From Brachyspira pilosicoli (GTDB lineage Bacteria > Spirochaetota > Brachyspiria > Brachyspirales > Brachyspiraceae), in contig NZ_JAWLPU010000004.1 of assembly GCF_036997485.1 (NCBI RefSeq), positions 62,001 to 126,000 of the forward strand: a stretch of 64,000 nucleotides of DNA. The letters are read 5' to 3'. Positions 44,757 through 60,360 of the stretch are shown in pieces; the stretch's first letter is position 1; each line of letters begins with the position of its first letter. Below the pieces are notes generated by a model. That model saw only the letters and a list, made by a program, of their open reading frames with translations, had not been told where the DNA came from and did not search any database. Both the position numbers and the translations under genes were made by a program.

Positions 44757-46910
44757 ATGAAAGGTAAAAGAATTATCATAATAGGGGCTGGACTATTACA
44801 AGTGCCAGCGATACAAATAGCCAAAGATATGGGATTATATACAATAGTATTGGATTATAATAAAGATGCTCCTGGAATGAAGATAGCTGATTATCCTATA
44901 ATAGCATCTACAAGAGATGTTGATGGAAGTGTGAGAGTTGCGAGGGCTTTAAGCAAAGAGATGGAAATACATGGTGTTATTACAGTTGGAACTGATGCTT
45001 CGAGTACGGTTGCTGCTGTTGCTAATGCTTTGGGGCTTCCGGGTAATAGATTTGAAGATGCTTATGCTGCTTCAAACAAAATAAGAATGCGTGAGAGGTT
45101 TAAGAAAAACAATGTTCCTCAGCCTAATTTTTTTCCTGTGTGGAATTATGATGAGGCGGTTGAGGCTTATAGAAATTTAACTAAACCTGTTGTAATAAAG
45201 CCTGCTGACAATATGGGGGCTCGCGGTGTAATGAAGGTGTCTGATGAAAAGGATGTGCTTAATGCTTTTAATAGGGCTAAGAGTGCTTCGCCTTCGGGAG
45301 AGGTGATAATAGAAGAGTTTATGGAAGGACCTGAGCTTTCTATAGACATGCTTATTTATAATGATGAAATATATGTTACAGGTGTTGCTGACAGAATAAT
45401 AGAGTATCCTCCATTTTTTATAGAAACTGGTCATATACTTCCTTCTGCTTTGGAGCAAGAAAAGATAGATGATGCAATCAATGTAATGAAGGCTGGCATA
45501 AAAGCTTTGAATTTAAAAATTGGTGCCGCTAAGGGAGATATAAAAGTAACTAAAAACGGTGCCATGGTAGGGGAGATTGCTGCAAGACTTTCCGGCGGGT
45601 TTATGAGTGCTTATACTTATCCTTTTGCTACTGGTGTAAACCTCATTAAAAATGCAATAGAGATAGCTTTAGGTAATCCTCCAAGTGATTTAAAGCCTAA
45701 ATGGGATAGAGTTTCTGTTGAGAAAGCTTTTTTACCTGGTACGGGGATTATTGAATCTATAGAAGGTTTAGAGAATGCTAAAAATATAGACGGCGTAAAA
45801 GAGATATTTATTAAAACAAAGGTAGGCGATATATTAGTTTCTCCTACAAGCAATCTTGATAAGGCTGGAAACGTTATAGCTGTGGCAGATAATAGAGATA
45901 AGGCTATAGAAATTGCTAATAAAGCTATAAATGCTGTTCATTTTAAGCTAACCGATGAAAAATCTCTTACAATAGAAGAAATTAAAAAAGTATCAAAAGA
46001 GAAATTATCTTCAAAACATAATGTTGATTATTTGTTTGATGAAAATAAAGATACAGGTTTGGAAAATTATTCTTTTTTTCCAAGCATAATACATAATGAT
46101 GATAAAGATGTTAGCTTGCAAACAAGTATATTTAATATGCATCTATCTCAGCCTATTGTAATAGATACCATTCATAATCTTCCAGAAGCTTTAGATGGTA
46201 TAATGGATATAAAAGAATATTATAACATTACTATGGATATAGCTTCAAACTCTGAAATACTTGCTATACTCAATGATTTTAATAATGATGAAATATTTAA
46301 TTTAGCTATCCAATCTATCAAAGAACATAAGAGAGGAATTATTATGATTAGCGGTAATAATTCTCAAGATGTTATAATGAGAAAACTTAAAGAGGCTCAA
46401 AAGAATGGAGCTTGTGCTGTTGGAATAGATTTGTCTTATTATTATAATGGCTGTGAAAATAATATACATCTAAAAACTCATAAAGAAATAAATTATATTC
46501 AAAAACATTTAGATATACCTCTAATAATAAAAGGAATATCTAATGAAAAAGATATAATTAACAATAATTTAAATAACGTATATTTTTCTAATAATAATAA
46601 GTATTCATTAAAAGGTATGAAAAAAGTTTCCGATACTATTAGTAGTGTAGCTTTAAACTTGCATAAAAATAAAACACAAATTAATATTTTGGCAGAATCA
46701 CCTAAATATGGCGGAGAATTGTTTAAGTATTATGCTTTAGGTGCTAATGTTGTTTGCGTAACAGAAGAAAGTTTTATTTCTATTGTAAGTAAAGGCAGAA
46801 AAGGACTTGAATATATGATTTATTCTACTAAAGAAGAATTAGAAAGAATGATGAAAATATTCGGATTCAATAAATTAAAATATGATAATACCGTATGGTG
46901 CAAAAATTAG
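44757..46910 (+). CDS. ATP-grasp ligase fused to a degenerate FMN hydroxyacid-dehydrogenase-like barrel
   Basis: 717 aa. Residues 1-400 are an ATP-grasp enzyme of the PurK/PurT/carbamoyl-phosphate type: dinucleotide-like start 'IIIIGAGLLQVPAIQIAKDMG', 'PVVIKPADNMGARGVMKV', 'VIIEEFMEGPELSIDML', and 'GEIAARLSGGFMS' with the metal ligands. Residues about 430-717 align by eye with FMN-dependent alpha-hydroxyacid dehydrogenases: 'IPLIIKGISNEKDI', 'GGELFKYYALGANVVCV', and 'KEELERMMKIFGF' match the family's last strands and helix in order. The catalytic SNHGGRQ block is replaced by 'SNNNKYS', so the barrel is probably not an oxidase. First gene of a set with 46921 and 47949. Confidence 0.7.
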   Translation: MKGKRIIIIGAGLLQVPAIQIAKDMGLYTIVLDYNKDAPGMKIADYPIIASTRDVDGSVRVARALSKEMEIHGVITVGTDASSTVAAVANALGLPGNRFEDAYAASNKIRMRERFKKNNVPQPNFFPVWNYDEAVEAYRNLTKPVVIKPADNMGARGVMKVSDEKDVLNAFNRAKSASPSGEVIIEEFMEGPELSIDMLIYNDEIYVTGVADRIIEYPPFFIETGHILPSALEQEKIDDAINVMKAGIKALNLKIGAAKGDIKVTKNGAMVGEIAARLSGGFMSAYTYPFATGVNLIKNAIEIALGNPPSDLKPKWDRVSVEKAFLPGTGIIESIEGLENAKNIDGVKEIFIKTKVGDILVSPTSNLDKAGNVIAVADNRDKAIEIANKAINAVHFKLTDEKSLTIEEIKKVSKEKLSSKHNVDYLFDENKDTGLENYSFFPSIIHNDDKDVSLQTSIFNMHLSQPIVIDTIHNLPEALDGIMDIKEYYNITMDIASNSEILAILNDFNNDEIFNLAIQSIKEHKRGIIMISGNNSQDVIMRKLKEAQKNGACAVGIDLSYYYNGCENNIHLKTHKEINYIQKHLDIPLIIKGISNEKDIINNNLNNVYFSNNNKYSLKGMKKVSDTISSVALNLHKNKTQINILAESPKYGGELFKYYALGANVVCVTEESFISIVSKGRKGLEYMIYSTKEELERMMKIFGFNKLKYDNTVWCKN

Positions 46911-46920
46911 GTAGTTATTT

Positions 46921-47946
46921 ATGGAAGTAAAAGAAATTAGCTTATCAAAATCATATCTCTATGGTTTTTTTGCTGCTATGATAAGCACTTTAATATATAG
47001 TGCTATAGCAATACCTATTTATATATTGCTTATATCTTCAAACCCCAATAATTTTTTAGTTTATTTGCTTTATACTTTGGATATTTGGGTTTGGATATGG
47101 ATATCTATGTCTGTATTGTATGCTTTTGTTGTGGTTTTTATATTTTCTGCAAAAGAGCATGAGGCTAATTTAAGAAAAAGCATAGGTAATATTTTGTTTT
47201 TTGTAGTAACTTCTATAGTAATGCTTCTTTCTTTAAGCTATATACCAGAAATACAGAAAATCTTATATAGACAAGAATATACATTCTATAGCACAATATT
47301 ATCTTTATGTTTATTTTTTATTGCTATATTTCTATCTTATAATATAAAAAATATTATACTCTTTATGTATAATTTAATATTGTTTAACTTAGGATATGAA
47401 TCTAATAATTCTTCCAATAGTTCAATTAATGAAGCTGAAAAAACTAATACTTTAGAATATGAAATATTTAATAATACATTGAAAACAGTAATATCATTTT
47501 CACAAAGACATAATTATGCTATAGGTATAATGGCATTTAATATTTCTAATGCTAATGATATAATAGAGCATTATGACAGGCTTGGTTATTACAAAATAAG
47601 AAAAGATTTGGTTGCTTTTATTAAAAGAGAGGCAAGAGCAGGCGAGAGTCAATGTTTAATAGATGATGATGTTATATATATAATAGTATATGCTAATGAA
47701 GAAGAGGCTTTAAAGATTACAAAGAGATATTTAAAGATGCTTCAAAACTATAACTTTAGTTATAATGGCGATAGTATAGATGTAAAAGTGTCTATGGCGG
47801 TTAGCGGATTTGATTTTGCTGATAATAAGGCTAATAAAATATCAATTTTTACAGTTAAAGATAATTTAACTGATAAAATAAAAGAAGCTTTAAGGGAATC
47901 TAAAGAAACAGAAAGCCCTGTTATAGTTTATCAAAAAGGAATATAA
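46921..47946 (+). CDS. Membrane protein with degenerate GGDEF-like domain
   Basis: 341 aa. Four membrane helices (about 12-36, 48-75, 88-107, 120-155), then a cytoplasmic domain (about 185-335) whose pattern follows a diguanylate cyclase: 'NYAIGIMAFNISNANDIIEHYDRLG', 'KIRKDLVAFIKREAR', 'DVIYIIVYANEEEALKITKRYLKML', and the closing 'VKVSMAVSGFDF'. Where GG(D/E)EF should be there is 'CLIDDDVIY', so the active site is lost. It might bind a nucleotide or a partner without making c-di-GMP. It begins 10 nt after the ATP-grasp gene. Confidence 0.6.
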   Translation: MEVKEISLSKSYLYGFFAAMISTLIYSAIAIPIYILLISSNPNNFLVYLLYTLDIWVWIWISMSVLYAFVVVFIFSAKEHEANLRKSIGNILFFVVTSIVMLLSLSYIPEIQKILYRQEYTFYSTILSLCLFFIAIFLSYNIKNIILFMYNLILFNLGYESNNSSNSSINEAEKTNTLEYEIFNNTLKTVISFSQRHNYAIGIMAFNISNANDIIEHYDRLGYYKIRKDLVAFIKREARAGESQCLIDDDVIYIIVYANEEEALKITKRYLKMLQNYNFSYNGDSIDVKVSMAVSGFDFADNKANKISIFTVKDNLTDKIKEALRESKETESPVIVYQKGI

Positions 47947-47948
47947 TA

Positions 47949-49310
47949 GTGGAATTGTCAATTATACTTATAATGATGTTGATAGTTGCATTGGGAGTAG
48001 CGACTAATTTTATTGTGAAGAGCGGTTCTTATCCTGCTAAATTAAAACGTATTACTCAGTTTTATGAAGATGGTAATGTTGAACTTGCAATGAAAGAAAT
48101 TAATGAGCTTGACCCAAAGTTTAAAAAAGATCCAATTATATTATGGTATAGTGCTAATTTATATTATAAACAAAATCAGTATATATTGGCTATGGCATCA
48201 TTACAATCTATGTTAGATGGTGCTTATTTTACTAAAGATATTACCGAATTGAAAGTGCGTGAGTTTTTGGCTAATATTTATGAAGAGACAGGAAATGCTA
48301 AAAAGGCTTTAGATGAATATGATTATATAATAAAAATAAAAAATCAGGATTATGATTCTTTATATAAAGCAGGACTTATATCCTATCAAAGCGGCGAGTG
48401 GATATTGGCGCAAAAATATTTGTCATTGGCTGCTACTCGCAATGACAGCAATCCGGAATTATTGTATATGCTTGCTTATTCTTATTATAAAATGCGCAGT
48501 TATCATGCAGCGCAGCAGAATATTGAAAAGGCTATAGCTTTGGATTCTTCTAATTATAATTATCATTTACTTTATGGAAGAATATTATCCGCTTCGAGAG
48601 ATTTCCAAAACGCTGTAAAAGAATTAGAAATATCTTATGACAGCAGTTTTATAGATAATAAAGACAGCATATCATTAGATTTAGCTAACTCTTATTATGA
48701 ACTTGGAGATTATGATAAGGCTAATAAATATTACAGAGAGGTTCTTACTAAAGACAATATTGCAAATGAAAAAGTTGTAGATGAAAGATATAGATATGCT
48801 GAAACTTTAGTTAAACAAAAGCATTTTGAAGAAGCTGTTAAACAATGGGAGATAATAAAGTCTATAAGAAACATATATTTAGATGTTGAACAAAAGTTAA
48901 AAACTTATAGTTCTATTATAGCTAATAACGCATTTAGAACAGCATTAGAAATGGATGTTATTGATTATTTGGAAAAACATTTCTATAGAATATTAACTTT
49001 AAATGGATATATTGTAACGGATCATACTAAAAAATCTGATAGTTTGGTTTTCTTTGTTACTATTAAAAAATTCGGTTCTGAAGGACAATCATATAAAAGT
49101 ACTTTTGCTTTGGATACTTCTGGATACCCTATGAGACAAAATACTGTAGATGAGTTTATGGATTATGCTAGGGCATATAAGAGTGCTCACTCATTCTTAA
49201 TTAGTATAGGTGATTTTGCTCCTAATTTGAAAGTTGATGATACTGTGATGATTATAGAGCCTGAAAGATTTGAAGCTATTATTGAAGGCGTTATATCATT
49301 TAGCGATTAA
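47949..49310 (+). CDS. Membrane-anchored TPR protein
   Basis: 453 aa starting at GTG, with AAGGA inside the end of the previous gene and a 2-nt gap. N-terminal membrane segment (about 3-20). TPR units at about 60-280 ('LYYKQNQYILAMASLQSML', 'AYSYYKMRSYHAAQQNIEKAIALD', 'ANSYYELGDYDKANKYYREVL'). The C-terminal 130 residues form an unrecognised domain ('FYRILTLNGYIVTDHTKKSDSLVFFV') that resembles restriction-endonuclease-like sensor modules only weakly. It probably acts as a scaffold in the same pathway as the two upstream genes. Confidence 0.75.
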   Translation: MELSIILIMMLIVALGVATNFIVKSGSYPAKLKRITQFYEDGNVELAMKEINELDPKFKKDPIILWYSANLYYKQNQYILAMASLQSMLDGAYFTKDITELKVREFLANIYEETGNAKKALDEYDYIIKIKNQDYDSLYKAGLISYQSGEWILAQKYLSLAATRNDSNPELLYMLAYSYYKMRSYHAAQQNIEKAIALDSSNYNYHLLYGRILSASRDFQNAVKELEISYDSSFIDNKDSISLDLANSYYELGDYDKANKYYREVLTKDNIANEKVVDERYRYAETLVKQKHFEEAVKQWEIIKSIRNIYLDVEQKLKTYSSIIANNAFRTALEMDVIDYLEKHFYRILTLNGYIVTDHTKKSDSLVFFVTIKKFGSEGQSYKSTFALDTSGYPMRQNTVDEFMDYARAYKSAHSFLISIGDFAPNLKVDDTVMIIEPERFEAIIEGVISFSD

Positions 49311-50672: not shown

Positions 50673-50981
50673 ATGACTGAAGAACAAAATGAACAATCTC
50701 CAGAATGTGGAGGTATTTATTGTGCTAATTGCAGATATTGTGTTTTATTTAGAAAAGCTAGTGGAATAGACGGTTCACAGTATTTGCTAAGAGTAAAATG
50801 TACTCAGGAACAATGGCGTAAAAAACTTGGCGAAGAAAAAATGTACAAGTATTTTACAGTTGCCAGAAGAACTGTAGAGAAATGTGATGATTATAAGGAT
50901 ATGGGAGATTTGAGAAGTTTCCTAAAAATCCTACGCAAAAGTTTGCCAGTACGCGATGAAGTCTATTCTATAAAAAAATAG
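50673..50981 (+). CDS. Small Cys-rich conserved-looking protein
   Basis: 102 aa, no signal or membrane segment. The N-terminus carries four closely spaced Cys in 'ECGGIYCANCRYCVLF' (12, 17, 20, 23), with further Cys at about 43 and 71. The spacing suggests a bound zinc or iron-sulfur cluster. The rest is basic and helical ('WRKKLGEEKMYKYFTVARR'). I do not recognise a named family. First gene after a promoter, 12 nt before the TPR lipoprotein gene. Confidence 0.7.
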   Translation: MTEEQNEQSPECGGIYCANCRYCVLFRKASGIDGSQYLLRVKCTQEQWRKKLGEEKMYKYFTVARRTVEKCDDYKDMGDLRSFLKILRKSLPVRDEVYSIKK

Positions 50982-50993
50982 TGGATTTTGTTG

Positions 50994-51434
50994 GTGAAAA
51001 AAACTTATTATTTATTGCTTATTTTTGCTTTATTTTCCATCTCTTGTGCTACAACTGTCAAAGTTGATGCAGAAGAAAGATATCCTAAAATCATAGCAGA
51101 AAAGGCTTATACTGAATTTAATAATAAAAGATATAAAAATGCTATAGCATATTATCAGTATATTATAGATAATTTTGATAGAAATAATTTTGCTAAAGAT
51201 GTTTCTTGGGCTTATTATGAAATTGGTTTCTGTTATTATTATCAAAATAAATATGAGAAGGCTATAGATTATTTTAATATTGTTATCAATGACTTTGCCG
51301 TTTTACCTCCTAAGGTATTAGCTCAAAAAGTTATGCAAGATATTTATACTAAAAAGCCTAAATTAAAGCCTATTGAAACATTAGAAGAAGTGGAAGAAAT
51401 AGTAGATATTGAGCAAGAACTTGATATGGAATAA
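50994..51434 (+). CDS. Small TPR lipoprotein
   Basis: 146 aa. Lipobox 'LFSISC', then two or three TPR-like helices ('AEKAYTEFNNKRYKNAIAYYQYII' and 'AYYEIGFCYYYQNKYEKAIDYF'), Glu-rich tail. It resembles a shortened BamD/YbgF-type TPR lipoprotein. Start codons TTG 50988, TTG 50991 and GTG 50994 are all in frame; GTGGAT at 50981-50986 fits the GTG best, giving 'MKKTYYLLLIFALF'. It lies directly before the LptF/G-like gene, so an outer-membrane assembly role is possible. Confidence 0.75.
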   Translation: MKKTYYLLLIFALFSISCATTVKVDAEERYPKIIAEKAYTEFNNKRYKNAIAYYQYIIDNFDRNNFAKDVSWAYYEIGFCYYYQNKYEKAIDYFNIVINDFAVLPPKVLAQKVMQDIYTKKPKLKPIETLEEVEEIVDIEQELDME

Positions 51435-51436
51435 TA

Positions 51437-53155
51437 ATGAAAAAAATTGGCATAATCCCAAGATTGATACTAAGCTTTTCTATTATTAGTATTATTTCAA
51501 TATTTTTTATATTTCTGCTATATAACATATATACTAGAGGTGAGGGGAAAGTATATGATTTAATAATATATATTTTTTCATCACTTATTATATACAAAAA
51601 TTTTATTCCTTTTATAATAGCTTTAAGTGTATATTTGGCATTTTTTAGAGGTTATTATTTAGCTGGATTATCAATATCGAGGATTATTGCTATACCTATT
51701 GCTTTAATAGTTGTATTAACTGCATTTTTTACTTTTTATGATTATTTTTTAACAGACAAATTATTATATGAATTAAAAGATTATAATATTAATAAAGATT
51801 ATAAATATTTTAATCGATATAAATCTTCTTTAAAAGAAAGTGAATATCAAAGGGCAAAACAGGAGTTTGATGCCGGAAATTTAGATACTGCTGAGAGCTT
51901 TGCGAGAAATGCTTTAATATATGATAGAAATGACGGAAATATTTTATTATTATTAAAGGATATTGAAAATAAAAAGAATGAATTAGAAGAGATTCAAAAT
52001 ACGGATAGGAATGCTTATATAAATAATTTGCTTTCTCAAGGTTCCAGAGCATTTAGTCTTTCCAATTATTCTCTTGCTGGCCGATATTATACTGATGTGC
52101 TTAAAATGGATAGGTATAATCCTTTAGCCATTTATTATCTTAATAAAATTAGTATTATACAAAATAATAAGCCGCTTTATATTGGAAAAAATTTCTACGA
52201 ATCATTAGCTTATGGTAAGCTCGCAGATACTATAGAACTATATAGAAATGGAAATTTTTGGAGAGCATACAACAGCATATCTAATTTATATATTAATTAC
52301 CCAGATATTAATGAAATTAAAACTTATTATTCTTTGATAGTTGATAGTATTAATAGATATGATTTTTTTATAGATAGGGCAAAAGAGATTAGAAAATTTT
52401 TTATTGATGATTACTACTCTATAACCAATACAACTATGTTAGAAAATAATGGTATTACTTTAATGCTCAATAATAATACTACTATGCTTTCTGCTCTTTA
52501 TAGTATTTTTTTTGGTGAATCATTATATTTGTATGATGTATCTATAATTAATTTAGACAAAGATTTACAAATTACAAATCAAGTAATTTATAAATATGGA
52601 AAAATAACAGATTCATTTAATAATCAAGGTATAAAGAATATTATTTTAAAAGCTAAATTTAATGATAAGAATGAAACTTATGATAATAATAATACAAATG
52701 AATATATTATATCTGTCAATATATCTGACATAACAATAAAAAACATTAAAGATTATCCTTACAGAGTATTAGGTGATACAGGTATAAGAGACATTATAAG
52801 CTTAAGATCAGAGCTTCCTTTGTTTGGGTACTCTAATGAAAGAACTACAAATGTTTTGTTTAAAAAGATTTTATCTCCATTTTATTATTTGCTTTTATTT
52901 ATAGTAATAGCATACTTATCATTTAGGTATAATATTTATATTAGAAATACATCTGGGTTTATGGCTAATCTTATAGGTATTATAGGGAGTATATTGCTTG
53001 TTTTGCTTTATAATATAGTTCTTAATTATATATCTACACACATATTAATGATCTTAGGTTTTAATGTGAGTATTATAATAATGTTAGTTTTTGCTATTTT
53101 TATGATATTATTATTTTTATTACAGATGTCAAGAATAAATAAATATGTTAAATAA
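51437..53155 (+). CDS. Probable LptF/LptG-type permease with TPR-like insertion
   Basis: 572 aa. Three N-terminal membrane segments (about 8-30, 40-65, 78-105) and three C-terminal ones (about 478-500, 508-535, 540-565) give LptF/LptG topology. 'FIALSVYLAFFRGYYLAGLSISRIIAIPIALI' features resemble the family's cytoplasmic-loop region, and 'LYDVSIINLDKDLQITNQVIYKYGKI' (about 360-385) resembles its periplasmic beta-jellyroll. Between them lie about 200 residues with TPR-like helices ('AKQEFDAGNLDTAESFARNAL', 'GSRAFSLSNYSLAGRYYTDVL') not found in standard LptF/G. It may take part in lipooligosaccharide export; assignment by eye. It overlaps rsmA by 11 nt. Confidence 0.5.
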   Translation: MKKIGIIPRLILSFSIISIISIFFIFLLYNIYTRGEGKVYDLIIYIFSSLIIYKNFIPFIIALSVYLAFFRGYYLAGLSISRIIAIPIALIVVLTAFFTFYDYFLTDKLLYELKDYNINKDYKYFNRYKSSLKESEYQRAKQEFDAGNLDTAESFARNALIYDRNDGNILLLLKDIENKKNELEEIQNTDRNAYINNLLSQGSRAFSLSNYSLAGRYYTDVLKMDRYNPLAIYYLNKISIIQNNKPLYIGKNFYESLAYGKLADTIELYRNGNFWRAYNSISNLYINYPDINEIKTYYSLIVDSINRYDFFIDRAKEIRKFFIDDYYSITNTTMLENNGITLMLNNNTTMLSALYSIFFGESLYLYDVSIINLDKDLQITNQVIYKYGKITDSFNNQGIKNIILKAKFNDKNETYDNNNTNEYIISVNISDITIKNIKDYPYRVLGDTGIRDIISLRSELPLFGYSNERTTNVLFKKILSPFYYLLLFIVIAYLSFRYNIYIRNTSGFMANLIGIIGSILLVLLYNIVLNYISTHILMILGFNVSIIIMLVFAIFMILLFLLQMSRINKYVK

Positions 53156-53996
53156 TGTATATTCAAAATCAGAAATTACTGAATATTTAAAGAATAAGTC
53201 TATATTTCCAAACAAAAATAGAGGTCAGAATTTTTTATGCGACAGAAATATTGCTTATAATATAGCAAACACTGTACCTCATGGGATTTTAAGAGGAGAT
53301 TATGCTATAGAGATAGGAGGGGGATTAGGCTCTTTAAGTAATGTGCTTGTTGATATATATAAAAACAATCTTACTATAGTTGAATATGATAATGCTTTGT
53401 ATAATCATTTAAAAGAAACTTATAAAGATATAAATATTATTCATAACGATATATTAAAAGTTGATATTAATGATATAGATAAAAATAAAAACTTTGATGT
53501 ATATGGAAACATACCATACAATATAGCAAGCCCTATAATAGAGTGGCTTTTTTGTGACTGCTATAATAGGTGGAATTATGCTGTTTTTATGGTTCAAAGT
53601 GATTTTGCAAACAGGTTAATTGCTAAAGAGGGCAGTGAAGACTATTCTGCTTTAACATTGTTTGCAAGTTTTATGTCGGATATTAAATTAGAGTATAATG
53701 TATCAAAAGAAGTGTTTTATCCAATACCAAAAGTAACATCATCTATTATAAGTATTAAGCCTAAAGAAGTTGATTTGAGTATGCTTAATATTTTTAAATC
53801 TGTTTCAAAGACATTGTTTCACAACAGAAGAAAAACTATAAAAAACAATTTTCTGAAATCTCCATACATAGATATTGATAAAGATAAAATAGATGAAATA
53901 TTAGAAAAGGCAAATATTGATAAAGAGGTTAGAGGAGAATCTTTGAGTATAGAAAAAGTAAAAGAACTTTCTCTAATAATAAAAGATTATATTTAA
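53145..53996 (+). CDS. rsmA: 16S rRNA (adenine1518/1519-N6)-dimethyltransferase
   Basis: KsgA, 283 aa, dimethylates two adenines at the 3' end of 16S rRNA during 30S maturation. Family motifs are complete: 'NRGQNFLCDRNIAYNIA', SAM-binding 'AIEIGGGLGSLSNVL', catalytic 'YGNIPYNIASPII', and 'FHNRRKTIKNN'. The start overlaps the previous gene by 11 nt, implying translational coupling, and the stop overlaps the convergent lipoprotein gene by 4 nt. Confidence 0.95.
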   Translation: MLNNVYSKSEITEYLKNKSIFPNKNRGQNFLCDRNIAYNIANTVPHGILRGDYAIEIGGGLGSLSNVLVDIYKNNLTIVEYDNALYNHLKETYKDINIIHNDILKVDINDIDKNKNFDVYGNIPYNIASPIIEWLFCDCYNRWNYAVFMVQSDFANRLIAKEGSEDYSALTLFASFMSDIKLEYNVSKEVFYPIPKVTSSIISIKPKEVDLSMLNIFKSVSKTLFHNRRKTIKNNFLKSPYIDIDKDKIDEILEKANIDKEVRGESLSIEKVKELSLIIKDYI

Positions 53997-59290: not shown

Positions 59291-59776
59291 TTATACTTCT
59301 TTGATATATACTTTGTTCATAGTTGAGTTTACAATAGGGTTGTCGTTGTGGTCTCTTTGTAAAGCAACTATTTTATCAGCAACGTCCATTCCATTAACAA
59401 CATTCCCCCAAACAGTGTATTGTCCGTCTAAGAAAGGGCTGTCTGCTACACAAATAAAAAACTGTGAGCCAGCACTGTCTGGATGCTGACTTCTTGCCAT
59501 AGAGCATATTCCTCTTTTGTGTGATACATCATTAAACTCAGCTTCTATATTAAAACCAGGGCCTCCTGTACCATGTAAATGCCTTTTAGTAGGGTCTTTA
59601 CTTGTAGGGTCGCCGCCTTGTATCATAAAGTTAGGTATTACTCTATGAAATCTAATTCCATCATAAAAGCCTTCATTTGCTAATTTTTTGATAGCTTCCA
59701 CATGTTTAGGAGCTTTATCAGGATAGAATTCTATTTCTATAGTGCCATAATCTGTTTCTATAAATAAATGTTCCAT
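59291..59776 (-). CDS. Peptidyl-prolyl cis-trans isomerase, cyclophilin type (cytoplasmic)
   Basis: 161 aa. Catalytic region 'FHRVIPNFMIQGGDP' with the active-site Arg, 'MARSQHPDSAGSQFFICV' and 'LDGQYTVWGNVVNGMDV'. It accelerates proline isomerisation during folding. No signal peptide. It follows the paralogue at 59794, 17 nt upstream on the same strand; the pair shares most of its sequence and probably arose by duplication, one form staying in the cytoplasm and the other exported. Confidence 0.93.
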   Translation of the reverse strand: MEHLFIETDYGTIEIEFYPDKAPKHVEAIKKLANEGFYDGIRFHRVIPNFMIQGGDPTSKDPTKRHLHGTGGPGFNIEAEFNDVSHKRGICSMARSQHPDSAGSQFFICVADSPFLDGQYTVWGNVVNGMDVADKIVALQRDHNDNPIVNSTMNKVYIKEV

Positions 59777-59793: not shown

Positions 59794-60360
59794 TTATTTT
59801 ACATATACTTTATTCATCTTAGCAGGTGTAAGAGGGTTATCATTTGCATCTCTTTTAAGATTAACTATCTTGTCTACAGCGTCCATTCCTTTAATAACCT
59901 CACCCCAAACAGTATATTGTCCATCTAAAAAAGGACTGTCAGCTACACAAATAAAAAATTGTGAACCAGCACTATTAATATTCTGACTTCTTGCCATAGA
60001 ACATATTCCTCTTTTGTGTGATACATCATTAAACTCAGCAGGTATTACAAAGTCAGGGCCTCCTGTACCATGTAAAGCTCTGTTAGGCTGTTTGCTTAAT
60101 GGGTCGCCTCCTTGTATCATGAAACCAGGTATTACTCTATGAAAAAGTGTGCCGTCATAAAAACCTTGATTTGCTAATTTTTTAATAGCTTCTACATGTT
60201 TAGGAGCTTTTTCAGGATAGAATGCTATTTCTATAGTACCATAATCTGTTTCTATAAATAAATGTTCTTTAGATGTTTTAGGCTTTTGTGCCAATAATAC
60301 TGCTGTAAATGCTATCACAGCTAATAATGATAGTAAAATAACTTTTGTCTTTTTCAACAT
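59794..60360 (-). CDS. Peptidyl-prolyl cis-trans isomerase, cyclophilin type (exported or membrane-tethered)
   Basis: 188 aa. Adds an N-terminal signal/anchor ('VILLSLLAVIAFTAVLLAQ', about 7-25) to the same cyclophilin core: 'FHRVIPGFMIQGGDP', 'MARSQNINSAGSQFFICV', 'LDGQYTVWGEVIKGMD'. The 'LLAQK' end may be a signal peptidase I site, so it would act in the periplasm. It lies 26 nt after the LysM protein gene. Confidence 0.9.
   Translation of the reverse strand: MLKKTKVILLSLLAVIAFTAVLLAQKPKTSKEHLFIETDYGTIEIAFYPEKAPKHVEAIKKLANQGFYDGTLFHRVIPGFMIQGGDPLSKQPNRALHGTGGPDFVIPAEFNDVSHKRGICSMARSQNINSAGSQFFICVADSPFLDGQYTVWGEVIKGMDAVDKIVNLKRDANDNPLTPAKMNKVYVK

Follow-up and report, generated by a model that had tools for sequence, protein, structure and literature searches.

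The window, a 64,000-nucleotide stretch of the 2.7-Mb genome of Brachyspira pilosicoli, encodes a 572-residue protein (51437..53155, + strand) that joins the topology of an LptF/LptG permease to an insert of TPR type, which raises the question of whether it works in LPS export or in some other part of the cell envelope. The first-pass annotation had suggested that it could be part of a variant LPS-export complex in which the TPRs replace a missing bridge component. Its description of the locus held up well: the reading frame was recovered exactly, the AlphaFold2 model showed the membrane topology described, Pfam and structure searches agreed with the LptF/LptG resemblance, and the gene directly upstream does encode a TPR lipoprotein. 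Its explanation of the locus fared worse, as set out below.

We modeled the protein with AlphaFold2, using an alignment of 17 rows that comprised it and relatives from named contigs (pLDDT 77.8, pTM 0.65). The model places TM1 at residues 6–35 (51452..51541) and TM2 at 42–71 (51560..51649), followed by a loop of about 8 residues (72–79, 51650..51673) at the site where ordinary LptF/G carry the LptB coupling helix, and then TM3 with a helical continuation (80–146, 51674..51874), the sidedness of which is presumed. TPR-type helices occupy residues 149–324 of the model, and we assigned residues 132–324 (51830..52408) to the TPR part from the model, VIA-align superpositions and the TPR_19 matches of relatives. 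The result is an insert of about 190 residues between TM3 and the beta domain, much as the first-pass annotation had proposed. Six strands at residues 340–427 (52454..52717) form the predicted counterpart of the LptF/G periplasmic beta domain, according to the model, VIA-align and PF03739, and TM4–TM6 (467–570, 52835..53146; helices 467–502, 508–540 and 542–570) close the chain, in agreement with profile comparison. All of these features lie on the + strand. The sequence of the window protein alone gives little TPR signal (Pfam TPR_19, E 0.099), but 8/20 aligned relatives matched TPR_19 at E ≤ 0.01 (best, 1.2e-5) and one passed the TPR_14 cut-off (26.6 versus 23.5 bits); stacked TPR helix pairs are thus supported by Pfam matches of relatives as well as by structural matches of the model.

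Structure searches pointed consistently to LptG. Foldseek returned seven PDB matches to the window model at E ≤ 0.001, every one an LptG chain, and the top ten VIA-align superpositions were LptG chains of LptB2FG complexes (Z 16.4–20.4, 286–326 residues aligned), including LptG of Acinetobacter baylyi (PDB 8frl; Z 20.4, 315/338 residues, rmsd 5.7). Two LptF chains came next (Z 14.1 and 13.8), and the remaining proteins, nearly all TPR, scored Z 10.0 or less, with TPR chains superposing on residues 132–184 and 253–311 at Z about 8–10. Whole-chain TM-scores for the seven Foldseek matches were low (0.22–0.27 by query length), probably because the insert displaces the two halves. A second model, of the 40%-identical relative at locus L045 (pLDDT 71.2, pTM 0.49), had the same topology, and 6/6 of its PDB matches at E ≤ 0.001 were LptG chains. 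Both models are of moderate confidence, and both were built from alignments of relatives of the window protein only, with no ordinary LptF/G among them; each shows the LptF/LptG arrangement of three membrane helices, a beta domain and three more helices. Because LptG chains outranked everything else in the searches of both models, we regard the LptF/LptG-like fold that they predict as real.

In the order of the window, which we call Brachyspirales (coded families f1 and f2; this name and 'Treponema-type', for coded family f19, are presumed), the gene order is kept wherever the contig reaches. It runs from a 102-residue, cysteine-containing protein without a Pfam match (50673..50981, +) through the 148-residue TPR lipoprotein (50988..51434, +), identified by a lipobox-like FSISC and TPR matches in Pfam, to the long gene itself and ksgA (rRNA adenine dimethylase; 53145..53996, +), which overlaps the 3′ end of the long gene. 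Of 22 Brachyspirales loci, two of which (L045 and L104) are seemingly one and the same site, 21 contained the lipoprotein and 21 contained ksgA; the locus without the lipoprotein begins within the long gene, and the one without ksgA ends within it. Across 13–14 loci, the long protein was the fastest-evolving of the cluster (median identity to the window's own copy, 42.9%, compared with 74.2% for KsgA and 70.8% for the lipoprotein), and the 102-residue protein was the most conserved (89.2%). Farther upstream, a membrane protein with a very weak GGDEF-like domain (46921..47946, +) and a TPR protein (47949..49310, +) form a pair that recurs in close relatives (L034 and L048) and is not at that place in more distant Brachyspira. 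The window also encodes a 717-residue protein with ATP-grasp/L-amino acid ligase domains and an FMN-dependent dehydrogenase-like C terminus (44757..46910, +) and two adjacent cyclophilin-type isomerases (59291..59776 and 59794..60360, −), one with a signal-like N terminus.

Within the genus-level group to which the window belongs, 24/25 genomes carried the protein; the exception (G006) is 88% complete and lies in 990 contigs. With a query from the Treponema-type family, a long relative was found in 114/118 genomes of that family, and the four genomes without it include one of 1.1 Mb. At the level of the phylum, a full-length profile matched 142/296 genomes but was rejected as a distribution because TPR cross-matches dominated, among them many unrelated proteins of 640–690 residues for which at most one membrane helix is predicted. 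The TPR-free C-terminal profile that replaced it matched 94/292 genomes, or 87/227 among the better ones; its weakest matches (E 4e-4 to 9e-4) are partly doubtful and many matches are the profile's own rows. A scan of all genomes with Brachyspira-type peptides yielded 16 loci, all labeled Brachyspira or, once, a spirochaete bin.

Outside Brachyspirales, we compared 20 loci from 20 genomes, picked to cover families rather than at random and differing in stretch length. All 20 carried a gene for 280–351 residues with 4–6 predicted helices directly upstream of the long gene on the same strand, at a spacing of −135 to +51 bases. Neighbor identities were obtained by clustering and then Pfam searches of one or two members per cluster, with some of the clusters scanned; on this basis, a STAS-domain gene occurred in 12/20 loci, PspA in nine and CesT_Tir/YbjN in six. 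A further neighbor, which we take from its sequence to be murA-like, was found in 14/20. Short–long pairs near STAS, CesT/YbjN and PspA genes occurred at L180, L181, L188, L189, L190, L191 and L192, among others, and at L191 the short gene overlaps the end of the PspA gene. A Trans_reg_C-type regulator gene also lies beside the pair in several spirochaete families. The short-partner profile matched 47/292 genomes and none in the window's order, and no second permease-like partner was found in Brachyspira by this profile; short partners of other families were recognized by position and helices only. Compared with LptF/G, the profile scored 23.6 (reversed controls, 18.0 and 18.2), which is no firm tie, and PF03739 was matched by 1/29 short partners (2.2e-5). 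Topology and gene pairing nonetheless suggest that the short partner may itself be of LptF/G nature.

The clearest departure from ordinary permeases concerns LptB. In the published consensus, the TM2–TM3 loop carries a hydrophobic-x4-E-hydrophobic-x-hydrophobic-hydrophobic-x3-G motif, the Glu of which is strictly conserved and required for LptB affinity (Simpson et al., PMC5082905). The Glu column was Glu in 38/38 ordinary spirochaete LptF/G, 28 of which had the full consensus, as opposed to 0/69 relatives of the window protein; the window protein lacks it too. Even the reduced pattern E-x7-G, found in 37/38 ordinary LptF/G, occurred in only 5/69 relatives, anywhere in the scanned stretch. Three ORFs without family features, one each from L153, L161 and L162, had been collected by length and helix count and were dropped before these counts of 38; two retained rows (L144_2349_3674 and L155_1183_2592) have N-terminally extended starts. 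The TM2–TM3 loop of the relatives contains no mostly acidic column; their first 175 residues have just one, located close to where the TPR part starts. The full consensus was found in 0/30 short partners of the Treponema type and in 2/20 taken by position, at sites unchecked against the loop. Judged from sequence, the window protein probably does not engage LptB, with motif loss being evidence rather than proof.

These counts also weigh on the idea of a second, specialized Lpt-type ABC exporter that would use the single LptB via changed contacts, together with the short partner or an ordinary LptF/G, for another lipid or glycolipid. Such an exporter would fit the LptG-like fold throughout, the likeness of short–long pairs elsewhere in spirochaetes to lptF–lptG gene pairs and the PF03739 match of one short partner, yet we consider it unlikely given that the coupling consensus is absent from every long relative and that the TM2–TM3 loop has no mostly acidic column. 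Moreover, LptB passed the cut-off at a single place in 14/14 genomes (in G190, as two fragments of one reading frame), with no second LptB, and no ABC ATPase appeared among the neighbor clusters that were scanned.

Kinship with LptF/LptG is also visible in sequence, mainly in the C-terminal region. PF03739 (LptF_LptG) matched residues 346–555 of the window protein at E 8.9e-5 and 22.1 bits, which does not reach the Pfam cut-off of 27.9, and matched 13/35 C-terminal regions of relatives at E ≤ 0.01, with one other family matched once. In profile comparisons, Treponema-type relatives matched ordinary LptF/G at 88.1% and a score of 57.2 (reversed controls, 25.7 and 25.4). The whole Brachyspira profile scored 23.5, below its reversed controls (29.9 and 29.3), and the C-terminal profile was the only one from Brachyspirales to beat its reversed control (38.8 versus 15.6). 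Long proteins of Brachyspira and the Treponema type were firmly linked to each other (98.9%, 382 columns, score 139.9; reversed controls, 23.7 and 24.9) across the TPR and beta regions and some of the membrane region. Searching PHROGs gave no match, nor did the C-terminal profile match any PDB sequence. An unrelated six-helix protein with periplasmic TPR and beta domains that came to resemble LptG by convergence would account for the sub-threshold Pfam score, the weak full-length profile match and the moderate model confidence; we judge this improbable, since PF03739 is almost the only family that the C-terminal regions matched and LptG led the structural matches of both models, by a wide margin over other folds in the case of the window model.

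Finally, we surveyed the ordinary Lpt machinery. A PF03739 search of the window genome found two ordinary LptF/G (260.1 and 194.2 bits), with the window protein third (21.7); across 20 chosen spirochaete genomes, PF03739 exceeded its cut-off in all 20, usually at two strong places. The window genome also encodes one LptB, an LptA-like protein in which two domains match (PF03968) above cut-off and, adjoining this LptA-type gene on contig C2, an LptC (PF06835) above cut-off. An 820-residue open frame of this genome with a weak match to the LptC model was set aside, its start being presumably that of a penicillin-binding protein. The genome search proposed in the first-pass annotation therefore recovered lptA, lptB, lptC and both ordinary permeases; only lptD gave no information, because its Pfam model matched 0/10 spirochaete genomes. 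With these parts in place, no bridge component is missing, and a variant LPS exporter whose TPRs stand in for one is very improbable, even though both the TPR domain and the TPR lipoprotein next to it are real; two ordinary permeases elsewhere in the genome are what the first-pass annotation itself had named as refuting its idea. By this gene inventory, the window protein is present in addition to the parts of the exporter and does not stand in for an absent one.

We therefore favor, with reasonable though far from complete confidence, an LptF/G-fold paralogue that is probably uncoupled from LptB and serves another envelope complex. A divergent LptF/LptG paralogue would have kept the fold of three helices, periplasmic beta domain and three helices, while a TPR domain was inserted after TM3, ahead of the beta domain, and the LptB-holding coupling helix disappeared. 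It would then act outside the LPS exporter as an inner-membrane subunit, with a periplasmic protein docked on the TPR domain (for Brachyspirales, the upstream lipoprotein is a plausible candidate), lipid or a partner bound by the beta domain, and any cytoplasmic-side work coming from something other than LptB. The likeliest role would be that of a scaffold or lipid-handling subunit in the inner membrane that recruits a periplasmic partner through its TPRs and takes no force from LptB. Gene context (PspA, CesT/YbjN and STAS) suggests envelope maintenance or a stress role, a matter that context alone cannot decide. Possible but doubtful is a more ambitious proposal, namely an undescribed, LptB-free, Lpt-like inner-membrane apparatus of spirochaetes, in which the short and TPR-bearing LptF/G-fold proteins would connect the periplasm with cytosolic proteins of membrane stress (STAS, CesT/YbjN and PspA) and act as an envelope-stress sensor or a passive conduit for lipid, with the TPR lipoprotein replacing the short partner in Brachyspirales. 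If the paralogue reading is true, such a widespread LptF/G-fold family would demonstrate that the fold is usable without LptB as its motor, and an unstudied component would be added to the poorly understood spirochaete envelope.

Within the literature covered by our searches, we found no paper on an LptF/G-like TPR protein, and a spirochaete family that combines the LptF/G fold with a TPR insert but lacks the coupling motif is seemingly undescribed. One known context is that of CesT/Tir–PspA operons (PMC11237479), as CesT/YbjN and PspA also adjoin the short–long pair in some loci outside Brachyspirales; the main text of that survey contains no occurrence of Lpt or STAS, and the searched text of a survey of PspA partners (PMC9239133) none of Lpt. 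Among spirochaetes, the Lpt system of Borrelia burgdorferi has been described (BB0464–BB0466, BB0807/BB0808 and BB0838; PMC10353723), in a text from which the words TPR and Brachyspira are absent. Its LptF and LptG carry small beta-taco domains and are described there as an ordinary pair. With LptF/LptG permeases in general (PF03739), the window protein shares topology and C-terminal sequence similarity, but it has an insert of about 190 residues of TPR type, lacks the coupling-helix consensus, falls below the Pfam cut-off, coexists with two ordinary LptF/G and has other gene neighbors.
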